Made by a program: the position numbers and the translations under genes. This document shows positions 14,021 through 21,567 of a stretch of DNA of 41,256 nucleotides, piece by piece. How positions within the stretch are numbered: the first letter of the stretch is position 1; the number at the start of each line of letters is the position of its first letter. The notes beneath the pieces are model-generated. The model was not told where the DNA came from. It was given only the letters and a program-made list of their open reading frames with translations, and did no database searches. Source of the stretch: Gammaproteobacteria bacterium (GTDB taxonomy: Bacteria > Pseudomonadota > Gammaproteobacteria > Steroidobacterales > Woeseiaceae); NCBI GenBank assembly GCA_009937605.1, contig JAACFG010000008.1, positions 1-41,256 of the forward strand. The letters are read 5' to 3'.

Positions 14021-14135
14021 CTCTTCGATTCCACCTTATGGCCTGTGATGAAGTGTCCGCGTAGAATGATCAACAGTCCTGACCCAACTACGACCAATAC
14101 CTGACCATTTGCTGACACGCGCTCCCGAGGCAGCA

Positions 14136-16487
14136 GTGACCGAAGAAAAAGACCAAAAATCAGAGGTTTACAGGTTCGATGATTGTGTGCTCGACGCCGA
14201 CACGCGCGAGCTGACAATGGACGGTGAGCCCGTCACGACCCAACCCAAGGCGTTTGAACTACTGCTGTTCCTGGTACGCAATCGCAGCCGTGCTGTTGAT
14301 AAGGACGAGCTCCAGGACGCGCTGTGGCCGCGCAGTATCGTGACTGAGACCGCGCTGACGCGTTGCGTCATGAAAGCCCGGCGCGCCGTCGGCGACGATG
14401 CCGACAAACAATCCGTGATCAAGACAGTGCATGGTCATGGCTATCGATTCGTCGCCAACATCGACGATCAGGCCGCACGGCCAGCCGAGGGAACAGTCAG
14501 CCCGACCAGGCCTCAACCCGCCAGGCGCAGCCCGGCGCTCGCGATCGCTGCCGCGATCATCATGATCGCTGTTGCAGGCTGGTGGTTTTTCGCCCCACAT
14601 GCGGTCAGCGGTGAGGTTCGACTCGCCGTATTGCCCGTCGAAAATGCGACGGGCGATGGCGAACTTGACTGGGTTCGAACGGGCATGATGAGTCTTATGA
14701 ACCGCATGCTTGAAGCCCGTGGCATCGCCGTGGTGGCTGAACGAAGCGTACTGGATCTCGCCGGCGACAAAACACTTGCCGAACTGACGACCAGGGACGG
14801 CGAGTTCAATATTGCTCTGCTCAGGACGTCCGGTCACACACATACGCTTGCCGCCAGGATCGAGTTTGACCAGGGCCTGTATCGGCTGAATTACACGTTT
14901 GCCGGAGGTGATGGCCGCGACCAGAGACGCACAATCGTCGGCAAGGAACCAACGCGCCTGGTTAAAGATGCTGTCGACACGATCGCGAGCCTGGTCACGA
15001 CGGGTACGCCGCCCAATGAGCACATGCGCGTTATCTCGGATGACGATTTCCTGAATGAGGCCTACGCGCGTGCGATGAGCCTGCAGTTCGAGGGAAACTA
15101 CGAAGACGCGAAGCGTTTCTTCCAGGTCATCATAGAACAGGACCCGGAGCTATTCTGGCCACGCTATGAGTACGCGCTGTGCGTGCGCAACCTGCGTGAC
15201 TTTGAAACGGCCGAGCGTCTGCTCATCGAACTGCGTGATGAGGTGACGGCATTGGGGGATACGAGCAAACAGGCAATTAGCAACAATGGGCTCGGCGTTC
15301 TCTACTACAGCCAGCGGCGCAATGACGAAGCGCTGGAATCGTTCCACCAGGTCATCCGGTTCGCGACTGAAGCCGGGAAGCCGATGTACGTCGTGACTGC
15401 AAACGTCAATCTCGCCCTTGTTACGCGCAACATGGGGGACATCGAGGCCGCCGCCGCACATATGGAAACGGCCTACGGCGTGTTGCAGGGTATGGATCTG
15501 CAATCCTACCCTGGCACGTTTCACAACACCTACGCAGGCATTTTGATGCGTACCGGCAACATGCAGGAAGCAGAAGAACACTCGCTGGCTGCCATCGAGA
15601 ACCTCCAGCTAACTGGCAAGCGACTGTACGCAGCCTATGCACAGAGCCGTTTGTCGACGATCTATCGCGTATCAGGTCGTCTCGACGAAGCGCTTGAGCT
15701 GGCGGAACAATCGCTTGTCGTACGCCGGGAATTCAACGACCAGCGCGGCATCTCGTCCAGTCTTTCGTCGCTCGGGGAAATCAACCTTGAACTGGGGAAC
15801 CTGACCCGGGCCCGGCAATACGCGGAGCAGGTGTATGACATTGGCGTTCAGACCGATGACATCGAGGTAATCGCGGCCGCCCGGAGTGAGATGGCGCACG
15901 CTGACCGCCTCCTCGGCGAACCGGAAAAGGCCGCAGCCGGTTACACGGAAGCCGAAGCACTGCAACGTACGATGGCTGATCCCACCGGGGTAGCGAATGC
16001 CCGAATTGGAATCGCACGGTCGTGGATAGATCTCGACGACTTCGATGGCGCTGAGAGTATCGGCCAGGAGTTGCTGCAAGGCGCGCGCGACCAGGAACGA
16101 GACCGGCTGGAGGCCAGGGCACTGATACTCCTGGGCGAAGTCGACCTGGCTCGGGAAAACTGGAGCGAGGCAGTCGCGCATTTCGACGAGGCGCTGTCTA
16201 TCGCGGAGCGCATCGGCGACGGTCCGATTGCGTTCTCCGTTCGCACCAGCCTGGCACGGGCGTGGCTGGAACAAGGCGATCTCGCCACGGCACAGACGTA
16301 CGTCGACGCGGTCGCACTCGATCGTCCGGAACACGCAAAGGTATCCAGGCTACAGGCGCGCATGGCCTGGGAACAGGGAAATTCCGCACAAGCTGCGGAG
16401 TTCATGGCCCGAGCCCGCAACAGCTCGGGTGAAGCCTGGAGCGATGAGGATACTGCGGAGCTGGAGCGCTACCGCGTCGGTAACTAG
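14136..16487 (+). CDS. CadC-like membrane-bound winged-helix regulator with TPR sensor domain
   Basis: A one-component regulator of 783 residues. Residues 11-108 form an OmpR/PhoB-type winged helix (ending in KTVHGHGYRFVANI), followed by a Pro-rich linker and a single membrane helix at about 133-153. A small domain starting VRLAVLPVENATGD (about 161-290) resembles the TolB-like domain often found in such regulators. The rest (about 300-780) is a chain of TPR-like helices (for example NNGLGVLYYSQRRNDEALES). I chose GTG at 14136 because GAGG lies five bases before it; a TTG at 14109 has no Shine-Dalgarno. The signal is unknown. It is divergent from the pseudo-hydrolase/MddA pair, which is a plausible target, and its last 4 bp overlap the convergent lipase gene. 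Confidence 0.88.
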   Translation: MTEEKDQKSEVYRFDDCVLDADTRELTMDGEPVTTQPKAFELLLFLVRNRSRAVDKDELQDALWPRSIVTETALTRCVMKARRAVGDDADKQSVIKTVHGHGYRFVANIDDQAARPAEGTVSPTRPQPARRSPALAIAAAIIMIAVAGWWFFAPHAVSGEVRLAVLPVENATGDGELDWVRTGMMSLMNRMLEARGIAVVAERSVLDLAGDKTLAELTTRDGEFNIALLRTSGHTHTLAARIEFDQGLYRLNYTFAGGDGRDQRRTIVGKEPTRLVKDAVDTIASLVTTGTPPNEHMRVISDDDFLNEAYARAMSLQFEGNYEDAKRFFQVIIEQDPELFWPRYEYALCVRNLRDFETAERLLIELRDEVTALGDTSKQAISNNGLGVLYYSQRRNDEALESFHQVIRFATEAGKPMYVVTANVNLALVTRNMGDIEAAAAHMETAYGVLQGMDLQSYPGTFHNTYAGILMRTGNMQEAEEHSLAAIENLQLTGKRLYAAYAQSRLSTIYRVSGRLDEALELAEQSLVVRREFNDQRGISSSLSSLGEINLELGNLTRARQYAEQVYDIGVQTDDIEVIAAARSEMAHADRLLGEPEKAAAGYTEAEALQRTMADPTGVANARIGIARSWIDLDDFDGAESIGQELLQGARDQERDRLEARALILLGEVDLARENWSEAVAHFDEALSIAERIGDGPIAFSVRTSLARAWLEQGDLATAQTYVDAVALDRPEHAKVSRLQARMAWEQGNSAQAAEFMARARNSSGEAWSDEDTAELERYRVGN

Positions 16488-17179
16488 AAACTCCCGGATT
16501 GCAGGAACGTAATCGTAAGCTCGATCGGCTTTTGCATTCGCATCATGAATGCATGCGAATGATCAACGACGACGAAATCAGCCATGCCGTCAAGTTTCGT
16601 GTCGGCAACTGAAACGCGGCCATCATCGGGGTTTTCGAGTACGGAAGAAGTAATCGGGTCAATCGTGCGATTGCCGGCAATCACACCGAGCTCAAAATTC
16701 GCAGGGCCGAGGGCGAGCGGGACGCTGTCTTCGCCCTGGCCAAGCTGGCGTCCGGCAGGGCCATTGAGCCAGTCAAATCCGGGTACGCCCTGCAGTTCGT
16801 CGACGGCAGCACTGCCCTGGTTGGGCGGGCCCAGCATGACGACGCGGCCCAAATCGGGTATCTCATTCTCCGCCAGGTACTGGCGAACGAGAATGCCGCC
16901 CAGCGAATGCGCTACGAAGTGAATGCGCTCAGTCGACTCATAGGCGCGGCAAGTTTCAAGTCCATCTCCGACGGCAACAGGAGCCAGCTCTTCGACGGTG
17001 TGATCCCGCGACGGGTAGTCAATGTTCGCCGTAAGAAAACCTGCGGCCTCGAGTTCGCGCTGCATCGGAGCCATCGATGTCGACGACCGCATCAGACCGT
17101 GCAGCAGGACGACGCACTCGTCAGCCTGCGCAAAACCGGCGCACAGTAACAAGGCGGAAAGCAGGCAGAAACGTCTCAC
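16484..17179 (-). CDS. Secreted lipase-like alpha/beta hydrolase
   Basis: A 231-residue exported hydrolase. An N-terminal signal peptide runs MRRFCLLSALLLCAGFAQA and cleavage is likely after AQA; position -1 to the Cys is Leu, so it is not a lipobox. It has VVLLHGL as oxyanion loop, nucleophile AHSLGG, a late PDDGRVSV segment with a candidate acid, and VDHSHAFMM with the candidate histidine. The pattern matches triacylglycerol-lipase/PGAP1-like proteins of about 230 residues. It probably acts in the periplasm or outside the cell; substrate unknown. GTG start at 17177-17179. It lies 56 bp downstream of the large membrane protein on the same strand. Confidence 0.85.
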   Translation of the reverse strand: MRRFCLLSALLLCAGFAQADECVVLLHGLMRSSTSMAPMQRELEAAGFLTANIDYPSRDHTVEELAPVAVGDGLETCRAYESTERIHFVAHSLGGILVRQYLAENEIPDLGRVVMLGPPNQGSAAVDELQGVPGFDWLNGPAGRQLGQGEDSVPLALGPANFELGVIAGNRTIDPITSSVLENPDDGRVSVADTKLDGMADFVVVDHSHAFMMRMQKPIELTITFLQSGSF

Positions 17180-17235: not shown

Positions 17236-20200
17236 TCAAGATTTCTCCTCGCTCTTCGAACGCCAGAAGCCATCGGCGCTGAAGCGTTGCCAAACCCACG
17301 GTAACCAACGCAGCAATGCGAAGCTCAGCCACAGAGCCCAGGCCAGGATCAGTCCCTTATATATCCACATGGGCACTGTAATCGCGGATGCGATCGGCAA
17401 CATGGCGTCGCTCCGATCAGAGAACCAGCCGAGCTCAGTGCCGTAAGACCGATGCCCTGCCAGGTGCATATCCGGCGTACCCAACAAACCTTGCGGCAGC
17501 GCGGTGACGATGGCTAGCAAAGCGAACACCGTCAGACCACCGATCGCAATCTGCAGGAAATTGAAACGCCACCAGTTGAGGTCACCCGGTTTGATCTTCT
17601 CGCGCAAACCACAGGCCAGTAACCAGGCTGCAACCAACGCGAGTACCGACCAGCTGAAAGTACTGAAGCCGAGACCGAGCAACAACCAGTGCCGGGTCGT
17701 CAGCGGCGCGATGCCAATGCGCCCAAGAATTAGCGCAAACAAAATCAAGGCCGCGAGCTCTGGCCAGTACAAGACGGCCGGACCAAGTTGCGGTCCCGTC
17801 GTACCGAGCAACCAGCGATTGTCGGTTCGCGATAGCGATAGATTAATGTTGCTGGCCGGCGCGCCCAGGTCGACTTCGGGCGTAAGGGTACGAAAACCCA
17901 TACCGCCATTCGCCCGCCACGCGATATGAATGCTGTGTTCGCCCGGCAGTATTGGCAACGTCAGCTCATCATCTTTGGCGCGCAGCGATTGTTCGCGACC
18001 GTCGATCGTAACGCCAGTCAGCTCCGCGCCAGCCGGCAGCCGCACAACATGCTGTGCGCCTCGCGTGGCCCGGTACTGCAGGCCCATGCTGACATCGCTG
18101 CTGCTATTACCGTAATCGACCGCCAATGTGACAGCATCGAAAGCCAGGGTGGAGCCTGCGCTGGCTTCGGGCCGGGACGCCACAATGACAAGCTGCTCGC
18201 CCGGCCGCGGATCAAATTCCGCGAGGCGGATGTCGCTGACGTCTGCGCCGGTATTGCTCTCCGGCAACCCATCGAAATCAACATTCCAGATATTTCCGAC
18301 CGCGACTCGCCAGGTTTCACTCCATGGCGATTCACCCGCTGTACGCAACGTTAACGGTGACTTCAGAGGCAGATTAGACGTCCAGCTAACCGCCCGCTGC
18401 TGCGGATTCATGGATACGAGGACCGTGCCATCGGTGACAGTAAATTCGCCGCTTACAATCGTTTCACCGTCAATCAGCGGCACCTCGAGTGTTAACGCAC
18501 CCTGTGCCGGGGCGACTCTGTAGACCGTTGTGCGCACACGCCAGTCGAGGTCGAGCTCCACCGTTCGTTCGACGCGAGCGAATGTCGGAAAGCGGCTGCT
18601 CTCCCACCGCACGGTCTCGCCACCCTCTTCCGTTTGCAGGCGTGTCAGCTGTAATGAACCGGACAGCAGGCGCCGGTCTTTTATCCCGGCAATGAACCAG
18701 CCTTCGGCGACGACGCTGACCACTCGTGGCGGTGTCTGGAACGGAATCTCGAGACTGTCAGTCGCAGGCACGGGGCCGCGCATGCTTACAGTGTGTCGCC
18801 CTGGTGTGACGTACAGCCAGTACGTGCCGTTGCCGGCGCGCATTACCCGAGCACTGTCCACGCCATCCACCAGCACGGCATTGGGACGCCAGCCCTGGGC
18901 TGATCCTGGCAACGGTATTGCCACGCCCTCCAAAGCATGCACTGACAGGTTCATGCCGATCGTATCCCCGTCGACTTGCACGCTCGCCGATGCGATTTCG
19001 GCGCAACGCGGCACACAGTCGGGCGGTTCGAGCAAGCGTTGCTCAAGTTGCCGCAGTAGCTCTGCATCCGGCATTTGTGCGTCGGCAGCCGGGCTCGCGC
19101 TCAGCATGGCAACACACAGTCCGGACGCGAGTATGCCAGCCGCCTGGCTCCGCCTGAGGGCAAGACCTCCAGGAAGCGTCCAGCGCCGGTTCGCTATCTC
19201 CGCGGCGAGCATTCCCGCGAACAGGAGCATCAGTCCAACCTCGACAAACCGCAGCGCCGATACCAGCCAGCGAGGCAGAACGACCAGTCGCATCGTCTGT
19301 TCGGAATCGACAGGACCGCTCCACCTGAGTGCGTAGGTATTCCAGCGCCACGACGGGATGCCCGGACCCGCCTGCACAATCGCGTTCGGTGCATGACGCG
19401 AAAACTCCTGGTCCACCTTGCTTCCGGTAACCACCAACTCCTCAAGCGCATCACTCTGAACCGGGCTGGATCGAGCGACGAGGCCGGCTTTTTTTGTCGC
19501 GTATTCCTGTTCAGGGTCCGCCATGTCAAACTCGTCTGCCGGCGAAGCGACAATTCCGGCAAGTCCGTACTGGTTATACTGCGACTCGAGCTGCGGGAAG
19601 ATCGCAACGCGCAGTTGCCCCGCGATGAACGGCACGAGCGCGATGATCAATACAGCGGCGCTTAGCAGTTGGTAGCTGCGGACTATCTTGTGCAATCGCC
19701 CCTCCGGCGTCACGCGCAGCAACGCAACCGCGGCCAGCAGGTTCAACCACAACCACGTTGGCGCGAACATCTCGTGAAAACTCAGGACCAACGCGAACAG
19801 GGCGACAACACCGGCGACTGGCGTGAACAGGCGCCACACGGCGATCGTAATAATCAGCACAAGAAAGAAGTCGAGCAGCTGCCATTCGCTCATCCAGCTC
19901 CCATACGCATTGTCGACGCCCGGTGCCGTCAGCAACTTGTGTCCGGGTGGCAAGTTCAGCGTCGCCTCAACATCGGCAAAGCGCGCGTCCCAACCCGTGA
20001 CAGGCATGGTTCCACGAGTATCGCTGCGGCCGAGGGCCTCGAGATCAACGTTCGTTTGTCGTACTTCGACGCCCGTCTGCCCTTGCGCGGAACCATTGGT
20101 TATCAGCAGACTCTCGCCGTACTCCATAGCGGATAGCAGTGCATAGGGGCCAGCCATGTCGAGGCGCCAGCCGGTACGCATTGCACCGCCAATCCGGTCT

Positions 20201-21291
20201 TGAACAATGAAGCCGTCCCCATCGAAGTCCAGCCACAGCGTTCGGCTGAGCGATAACTCATTGCTCGCCGATACAACACCGCGACTGCGTTCGTTAATCA
20301 GGAGCGACGCATCGCCGTCGACGCGAAACGCTGGATATGCCTGCCAATTGCCGGGCACTTCTGCCTGGGCGGGGTCGACAGGCGCTAACCCCTCTGCGGC
20401 AGAAACCCGCAATCGGTCATTGGACTGGTAACTCCAGACCTCGGAGTCGGGCAGGTTCGTGCCGCCGGCCGCACCTTTGATCTCGTTCATCACGGCCGGG
20501 CCACGCGCACCAAGGTAGACGACCCAGCGACCGGGCCTTACCTGTAAGCGAAGATTACCGTCCGCTTCCAGTTTTGCGGGAAGCTGGCTTTGCAGGCTAA
20601 GTGGCACAAACCCGTCGGGCAGGATTGGACCGAATACTTCCTCACGGACACTACCTGACACGTCGATCTGCAACTGCGTCACAAGACGAGTCGGAATGTC
20701 ATCGGCGATCAGTCGATACACCACGGCACGCACCGAATCCACGGCACGCGTGTCGCGTTCGCGCTCGCCGAGGAACACGCCATTTTGGTTGAACTCAGGC
20801 CGGTCAACTTCGCGACCATCAACGGACAGGGCGACCAGGCCGCTCTCGGCCGGAAGACGCAGCACGCCCGGCCGTTCGTCCCACTCGAATCGCCCGGCAA
20901 TCCGCCAGGTGCCAGGGGCAAGACGGACGCTCGGGACATTATTTCGTGCAATAACCTCAACTGGGCGGTCATTGGCCATTACCCGGTCGGGCCAGTGCTC
21001 CGGACTGCCTGGCAGAGCGACCCACTGGTCGTCGGCATGCAGCGTCCACTGCTGCATGAACCGCCCGCCGGTTGCCGTGACATCGAGCTGTAACTGACCC
21101 GGCCACGCGCACAGGAAATCGCTGCGCTCACCCGCGCCGCGATTGAAGTAGAACGGGCAGCCCCGGTATTCCCTATCCTTGAGAACCCACTGCTGCCAGT
21201 CCGCCAATTCGGCGGGCACGTAGTCCTGGGAAAAACCTGCACCCATGACAAACAACAGTGTGAGAACGAACAGCCTCAGTTTCCTTGACAT
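17236..21291 (-). CDS. Very large multi-spanning envelope protein of unknown function (1351 aa)
   Basis: I do not recognise a characterised family. ATG at 21289-21291 with GAGGAG five bases upstream; an upstream GTG (21319-21321) is less likely. It starts with a signal peptide (about 1-21), then a large beta-rich extracytoplasmic region (22-470), a cluster of membrane helices (about 472-560), and a soluble loop (about 560-672) carrying EELVVTGSK at 617-625, like the TonB-box/plug start of TonB-dependent receptors. Two more hydrophobic stretches follow (about 673-699 and 716-735, the second ending ASPAADA like a signal peptidase site), then a second beta-rich region (735-1170) opening with CVPRC (C759, C763). 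At least four membrane helices end the protein (1175-1330), with a basic/acidic cytoplasmic tail. The two halves look similar in plan, suggesting fusion or duplication. It lies between slyX and the lipase. Confidence 0.85.
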   Translation of the reverse strand: MSRKLRLFVLTLLFVMGAGFSQDYVPAELADWQQWVLKDREYRGCPFYFNRGAGERSDFLCAWPGQLQLDVTATGGRFMQQWTLHADDQWVALPGSPEHWPDRVMANDRPVEVIARNNVPSVRLAPGTWRIAGRFEWDERPGVLRLPAESGLVALSVDGREVDRPEFNQNGVFLGERERDTRAVDSVRAVVYRLIADDIPTRLVTQLQIDVSGSVREEVFGPILPDGFVPLSLQSQLPAKLEADGNLRLQVRPGRWVVYLGARGPAVMNEIKGAAGGTNLPDSEVWSYQSNDRLRVSAAEGLAPVDPAQAEVPGNWQAYPAFRVDGDASLLINERSRGVVSASNELSLSRTLWLDFDGDGFIVQDRIGGAMRTGWRLDMAGPYALLSAMEYGESLLITNGSAQGQTGVEVRQTNVDLEALGRSDTRGTMPVTGWDARFADVEATLNLPPGHKLLTAPGVDNAYGSWMSEWQLLDFFLVLIITIAVWRLFTPVAGVVALFALVLSFHEMFAPTWLWLNLLAAVALLRVTPEGRLHKIVRSYQLLSAAVLIIALVPFIAGQLRVAIFPQLESQYNQYGLAGIVASPADEFDMADPEQEYATKKAGLVARSSPVQSDALEELVVTGSKVDQEFSRHAPNAIVQAGPGIPSWRWNTYALRWSGPVDSEQTMRLVVLPRWLVSALRFVEVGLMLLFAGMLAAEIANRRWTLPGGLALRRSQAAGILASGLCVAMLSASPAADAQMPDAELLRQLEQRLLEPPDCVPRCAEIASASVQVDGDTIGMNLSVHALEGVAIPLPGSAQGWRPNAVLVDGVDSARVMRAGNGTYWLYVTPGRHTVSMRGPVPATDSLEIPFQTPPRVVSVVAEGWFIAGIKDRRLLSGSLQLTRLQTEEGGETVRWESSRFPTFARVERTVELDLDWRVRTTVYRVAPAQGALTLEVPLIDGETIVSGEFTVTDGTVLVSMNPQQRAVSWTSNLPLKSPLTLRTAGESPWSETWRVAVGNIWNVDFDGLPESNTGADVSDIRLAEFDPRPGEQLVIVASRPEASAGSTLAFDAVTLAVDYGNSSSDVSMGLQYRATRGAQHVVRLPAGAELTGVTIDGREQSLRAKDDELTLPILPGEHSIHIAWRANGGMGFRTLTPEVDLGAPASNINLSLSRTDNRWLLGTTGPQLGPAVLYWPELAALILFALILGRIGIAPLTTRHWLLLGLGFSTFSWSVLALVAAWLLACGLREKIKPGDLNWWRFNFLQIAIGGLTVFALLAIVTALPQGLLGTPDMHLAGHRSYGTELGWFSDRSDAMLPIASAITVPMWIYKGLILAWALWLSFALLRWLPWVWQRFSADGFWRSKSEEKS

Positions 21292-21360: not shown

Positions 21361-21567
21361 TCAATAATGCGGTGGGCGTTCGTCGGCCGGATCGCCAGAA
21401 TCCCCGCCGTCGCCGATGGATCTGACTCGATCGATCAGCGAGCGGCAAAGCTCTTCCAGTTGCATCAGTTTGGCTTGCTGGCCGGTTACGACATCGTTGA
21501 GTTCATGCAGTAACTGGTCCTGGTGAGCAAGTCGTGATTCGAGATCGATAAAGCGATCCTCGCTCAT
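21361..21567 (-). CDS. slyX: SlyX family protein
   Basis: Small 68-residue protein that is mostly a coiled coil (about 4-48, heptad pattern in LESRLAHQDQLLHELNDVV), with the family C-terminal PPHY. Function of SlyX is unknown; it is often near fkpA/slyD in enterics. The ATG is at 21565-21567, with AGGGGA about seven bases upstream. It is divergent from uup (66 bp) and 69 bp upstream of the large membrane protein on the same strand. Confidence 0.9.
   Translation of the reverse strand: MSEDRFIDLESRLAHQDQLLHELNDVVTGQQAKLMQLEELCRSLIDRVRSIGDGGDSGDPADERPPHY

Follow-up and report, generated by a model that had tools for sequence, protein, structure and literature searches.

A TonB-box-like motif in the periplasmic linker of an undescribed inner-membrane protein family

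Why should a large inner-membrane protein carry a short string of residues that resembles the TonB box of outer-membrane receptors? The question is raised by a gene on contig JAACFG010000008.1 (assembly GCA_009937605.1), whose analysed stretch of 41,256 nucleotides (the window) is one of the 232 contigs of a 3.12-Mb genome; the nearest relatives with names are metagenome-assembled genomes labelled Woeseiaceae or Gammaproteobacteria. The open reading frame at 17236..21291 was borne out on the minus strand, where all features of the protein described below also lie, and encodes 1351 residues from an ATG, or 1361 if an upstream GTG is taken. An earlier note on this DNA, written from the letters alone, had placed the protein in no known family, and searches of Pfam, NCBIfam and the PDB sequences with the protein, with profiles and with six divergent members returned sub-threshold matches only, in keeping with a tandem-half family not previously described. 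The profile of CreD, another type of inner-membrane protein, also found no match in the Pfam scans. About 120 homologous places were found; among near relatives 32 of 60 have a homologue, and genomes sampled from the order and from the phylum have one in 90 of 396 and 28 of 398 cases, respectively. Most homologues are full length, at 34–73% identity, and 165 positions, including C45, C61, C759 and C763, are nearly invariant across 98 full-length sequences. The f10 genomes G125, G257, G229, G303, G255 and G237 also hold family members (L117, L118, L120, L123, L124 and L125), and several of these genomes show one in-frame stop within the match region, possibly a frame end or a gene break.

The protein was modelled with AlphaFold2 using 82 homologues, the halves being modelled separately, and the mean pLDDT reached 86 for residues 22–745 and 87 for residues 670–1351. 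These models and the alignment-averaged hydropathy uphold the initial description of a multi-spanning protein with two large beta-rich extracytoplasmic regions, and place its helices in two transmembrane groups; they consist of beta-sandwiches and transmembrane helices, as expected of an inner-membrane-like protein and not of a beta-barrel receptor. Comparison of the two halves by hhalign gave a probability of 97.9% (E 5e-13, 464 columns), and because of this profile match the protein is, judged at the sequence level, an ancient tandem duplication. Each half follows the same plan: a beta region in the periplasm leads into four helices, after which the chain returns to the periplasm in a segment with strands and then forms one more helix. 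A predicted signal peptide (residues 1–21, 21229..21291), assigned by alignment hydropathy with the cleavage site inferred from sequence, is followed by the periplasmic beta region of half 1 (residues 22–470, 19882..21228), which was delimited by AlphaFold2 and fold search and contains the conserved C45 and C61. The helix group TM1–TM4 (residues 472–564, 19600..19878) and the later pair TM5 and TM6 (residues 674–731, 19099..19272), which is joined by an arginine-rich cytoplasmic loop, were placed by AlphaFold2 and hydropathy. In half 2, the periplasmic beta region (residues 760–1166, 17794..19014) is the homologue of that of half 1 according to AlphaFold2, hhalign and fold search, and a helix group predicted by AlphaFold2 closes the protein (residues 1175–1338, 17278..17769).

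Fold searches with both halves suggested two structural likenesses. In each half, one beta-sandwich resembles, in fold only, the N-terminal domain of the M1 aminopeptidases (aminopeptidase N and LTA4 hydrolase), with Z scores of 9–14 (about 11 and 14 for the two halves) and an rmsd of 2.6–4.0 over 140–150 residues; in half 1 the matching portion runs from residue 340 onward. The window protein differs from these enzymes in that it has no catalytic domain, shares only near 10% identity, and has a transmembrane bundle inserted ahead of the last sandwich strands. No peptidase domain was matched in it by Pfam, and the HExxH zinc motif is absent from it and present in 1 of 93 homologues. The top Foldseek matches of both halves were to Ost1/ribophorin I, a subunit of the eukaryotic oligosaccharyltransferase (E 2e-7 and 9e-10). 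The likeness lies in beta domains held outside a membrane anchor, and the overall superposition is loose (rmsd 15–25). Ost1 has one anchor helix in place of the helix bundle of the window protein, and Pfam and PDB sequence searches returned no match that would indicate sequence kinship between the two.

The box-like motif lies in a linker that is specific to half 1 (residues 569–640, 19372..19587), which is fast-changing, predicted to be disordered (pLDDT mostly below 60), and represented in the half 2 model by a short ordered loop at the corresponding place. The motif had been described as lying in a soluble loop between helix groups; a soluble linker was indeed found, and its site can be narrowed to the stretch that follows TM4 and precedes both the closing strands of the first periplasmic sandwich and TM5. 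The strands that follow it (residues 652–672, 19276..19338), defined by DSSP of the model and by structural alignments, appear in the model to complete the half 1 sandwich, since the alignment spans model residues 319–651 and yet only about 145 residues are aligned, so that TM1–TM4 and the linker are skipped. The linker end would therefore be periplasmic. Helix parity counted from the signal peptide and the distribution of positive charges also put the linker on the periplasmic side, and the arginine-rich turns TM3–TM4 and TM5–TM6 agree with this. The motif is thus predicted to face the periplasm and not the cytoplasm, where the TonB-box idea would have lost its ground.

The string EELVVTGSK that had been read at residues 617–625 was confirmed there, and the box-like motif, ALEELVVTGSK (residues 614–624, 19420..19452), was assigned by matrix scoring, by reference to the receptor boxes of the same genome and by comparison of spelling between lineages. 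The score matrix was derived from the receptor boxes of the window's own genome, 16 of its 18 receptors being used, and applied to 93 homologous linkers, each of which was compared with shuffles of its own composition. The score of the window protein lies above chance, being reached by none of 500 linker shuffles. Across the family, 45 of the 93 linkers scored at p≤0.01 against their own shuffles, where 0.9 would be expected and the reversed linkers gave 4 of 93. In 44 of these 45 box-bearing proteins the best match within the whole chain of about 1350 residues falls in the linker, and 41 linkers outscore the best non-linker match of any homologue. The distance from the end of the box to the conserved Q640 is 14–18 residues in most members. 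The exact pattern EE-x-VVTG occurs in the window's genome, by a DNA pattern count, only in two receptors and in the window protein. A further candidate, YLDEIRVTAPK in L177, belongs to a short open reading frame in which no signal sequence could be seen; it was discarded as probably fortuitous.

Conservation of the motif at the same site holds within the window's own taxonomic family but not among all homologues. Members from that family carry the box in 37 of 45 cases, those from the rest of the class in only 8 of 29, and none of the 19 from a distant clade of another class has it. In the other 8 of the 45 members it is lost or decayed, and box-less genus members often keep a decayed version such as ALEEFTDAGAA or AVEEVVAEKGR. 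When the linker was left out of the tree, about 13 changes were needed to explain where the box is present, and the box must therefore have been lost or gained repeatedly. Because of these losses, the sparse occurrence in other families and the number of changes, the box is not essential to the core function of the family. Within the genus, identity falls from 0.51 in the box to 0.11 over the preceding 22 residues, a contrast that is partly built in because the rows were picked for having a box. Identical codons make up the same fraction, 0.44, of the box and of the adjoining conserved core, and since codon turnover equals that of the core, the boxes are not recent copies. The likeness to receptors is also confined to about 11 residues in most members, so that the earlier suggestion of capture from a receptor gene found no support as a recent event. 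Two linkers extend further. That of L025 (residues 570–653) holds the longest receptor-like stretch of the family, EELVVTGSRILRPDASVSSVPMKVFS, and that of L131 (residues 577–687) has a plug-like phrase, AAVITREDIDKSG, ahead of the box LIEVTGSR, an order reversed in receptors. Pfam found no Plug similarity in either linker.

Comparison with the receptors of individual genomes revealed that the spelling of the box matches that of the same lineage in several cases. In genomes G737 and G605, receptors often spell their box VERIEVTGSR, and the family members there read EYERIEVTASK (L078) and ELERIEVTSSR (L087). The matrix from the receptors of the respective genome gives these boxes 20.4 and 25.0 bits, and four other matrices give 10.7–15.4 bits. 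L075 also scores highest with the matrix of its own genome, and L126 with that of G142, a genome of its genus; the exceptions are L001, which ties with G142, L028, which scores highest with G000, and L127, which does so with G792. The window's genome encodes 18 receptor plug domains and 5 TonB_C domains over the cut-off. All tested genomes of the window's class with a family member have at least 7 receptors, and those of the 19 distant members without a box have 0–6, a pattern that rests largely on one clade and is compatible with a role for TonB.

The genes around the locus offer little beyond the genus. The downstream neighbour is a secreted, lipase-like alpha/beta hydrolase (16484..17179, minus strand; Pfam Abhydrolase_6 and DUF676), and the upstream neighbour is slyX (21361..21567, minus strand; Pfam SlyX, 2.5e-21). 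Upstream, slyX and a divergent ABC-F gene are kept across the genus; downstream, the secreted hydrolase follows in most genus loci, in several of them after a DUF2238 membrane protein. Outside the genus, among loci whose flanking sequence extended to at most 5 kb, no neighbour was found to recur across families, which suggests that the protein does its work without a constant set of genes beside it. The lipase, which had been proposed as a functional partner, is thus a conserved neighbour within the genus but absent beside distant homologues, and the adjacency of slyX likewise holds in the genus and fails in distant loci; neither is an obligate partner. An inner-membrane gene of the DUF2238 family (PF09997) begins 0–25 bases after the homologue in L002, L003, L004, L103, L105, L108 and L111; the window has no such gene at that place and the hydrolase follows directly. 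Adjoining the hydrolase, positions 14109–16487 of the window encode a CadC-like Trans_reg_C DNA-binding domain fused to a long TPR region.

Taken together, the inner-membrane, multi-spanning and non-receptor character of the protein, its undescribed family and its periplasmic box-like motif stand as originally read, and the recent capture and the obligate lipase or slyX partner do not. We consider the box to be a putative docking site for the C-terminal domain of TonB on a non-receptor inner-membrane protein; this is the most likely reading, and our confidence in it is about evenly balanced. The box would be displayed on the flexible linker, some 70 periplasmic residues that connect TM4 with the closing strands of the half 1 sandwich, and the C-terminal domain of TonB may take it up as an added strand, the mode of binding known from receptors. 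Such docking could park Ton complexes near the inner-membrane protein, or the proton-driven Ton motor could tug the linker and, through its direct connections, TM4 and the final sandwich strands; we infer this pulling, as we do the binding and any physiological role. Counterpoints are the frequent absence of the box among homologues, the proteins that do not score best with the receptors of their own genome, and the location, since a TonB box usually bridges TonB to the outer membrane and would be unusual on a protein of the inner one. The main rival to a docking site, which we regard as somewhat unlikely, takes the box for an evolutionary by-product, a receptor-like string without function that a fast-drifting, alanine- and glutamate-rich linker holds by descent or through capture of a receptor start. 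The roughly 13 changes on the tree, the decayed versions in several members (for example ALEEFTDAGAA) and the longer receptor-like stretches of L025 and L131 would fit this view; it is opposed by the excess over same-composition shuffles, the near-fixed spacing, the match of codon turnover to the core, the lineage-specific spelling, and the lack of Plug similarity of the L025 and L131 linkers in Pfam.

Two other explanations appear weaker. The box might be a tag for some different factor, for instance a protease, chaperone or assembly factor of the periplasm, which acts on receptor N-termini as well, and this would account equally well for the lineage-matched spelling and for the boxes in the VWA/YfbK-like proteins described below; we think it improbable, as reviews describe TonB as the ligand of such a sequence (PMC9022066, PMC11658791). 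The view that the box is a strand within the fold of the protein itself and resembles a TonB box by convergence could draw on the near-fixed distance to the following strands. The box segment is nevertheless predicted to be strandless with a pLDDT below 50, many homologues that keep the core residues are box-less, and the lineage spelling would stay unexplained, which makes this explanation very improbable.

If the docking reading is true, the clients of the Ton motor, which is understood as powering receptors of the outer membrane and toxins that exploit this route, would extend beyond receptors to an inner-membrane protein and to a second, unrelated family. VWA/YfbK-like proteins (PF12450) were tested as suspected carriers of similar motifs. 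Among those of the order, 6 of 20 testable proteins (L266, L268, L270, L273, L281 and L283) have a box at p≤0.01 in a variable N-terminal linker, as in DYEEIVVTGSR, PADEIVVTTSK and SLDEIMVTTRK, and several have a lipobox-like sequence; none was found in the window's own genome. Because these proteins carry it too, the box-like motif occurs in at least two unrelated families of non-receptor envelope proteins. We tentatively suggest, with rather less than even confidence, that the TonB box serves as a transferable docking motif and has repeatedly spread or evolved into disordered linkers of unrelated non-receptor envelope proteins in receptor-rich proteobacteria, where the Ton motor may dock to or pull on clients other than receptors. 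The family itself is large, widespread and strongly conserved, has no Pfam entry, and has a fold that can now be partly assigned; its lineage-matched box offers a concrete and cheap binding test. In the open-licence literature, no report was found of a TonB box in a resident non-receptor protein, whether of the inner membrane, of the VWA type or otherwise.

Among known systems, the TonB-dependent receptors share with the window's family a TonB box in a flexible periplasmic segment that is spelled as in the same lineage. In receptors, TonB binds the box as a strand added to its C-terminal domain, and the box can be internal, as in FecA, where it occupies residues 80–84 after an extra domain (PMC11658791); in one of the present models the Ton motor pulls (PMC9022066). 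A receptor of the window's genome (L160) likewise has an internal box after an extra domain. The window protein differs from the receptors in having neither a plug domain nor a barrel and in lying in the inner rather than the outer membrane; Pfam found no Plug domain (PF07715) in it, the 18 of the genome being elsewhere. The VWA/YfbK-like proteins resemble it as non-receptor envelope proteins with a TonB-box-like motif, but belong to another family and fold, and many have a lipobox-like sequence. The bacteriocins colicin M and pyocin S2 are also non-receptors that offer a TonB box to TonB (PMC11658791, PMC9022066); they are, however, secreted toxins drawn in via receptors, whereas the window protein is a resident of the inner membrane.
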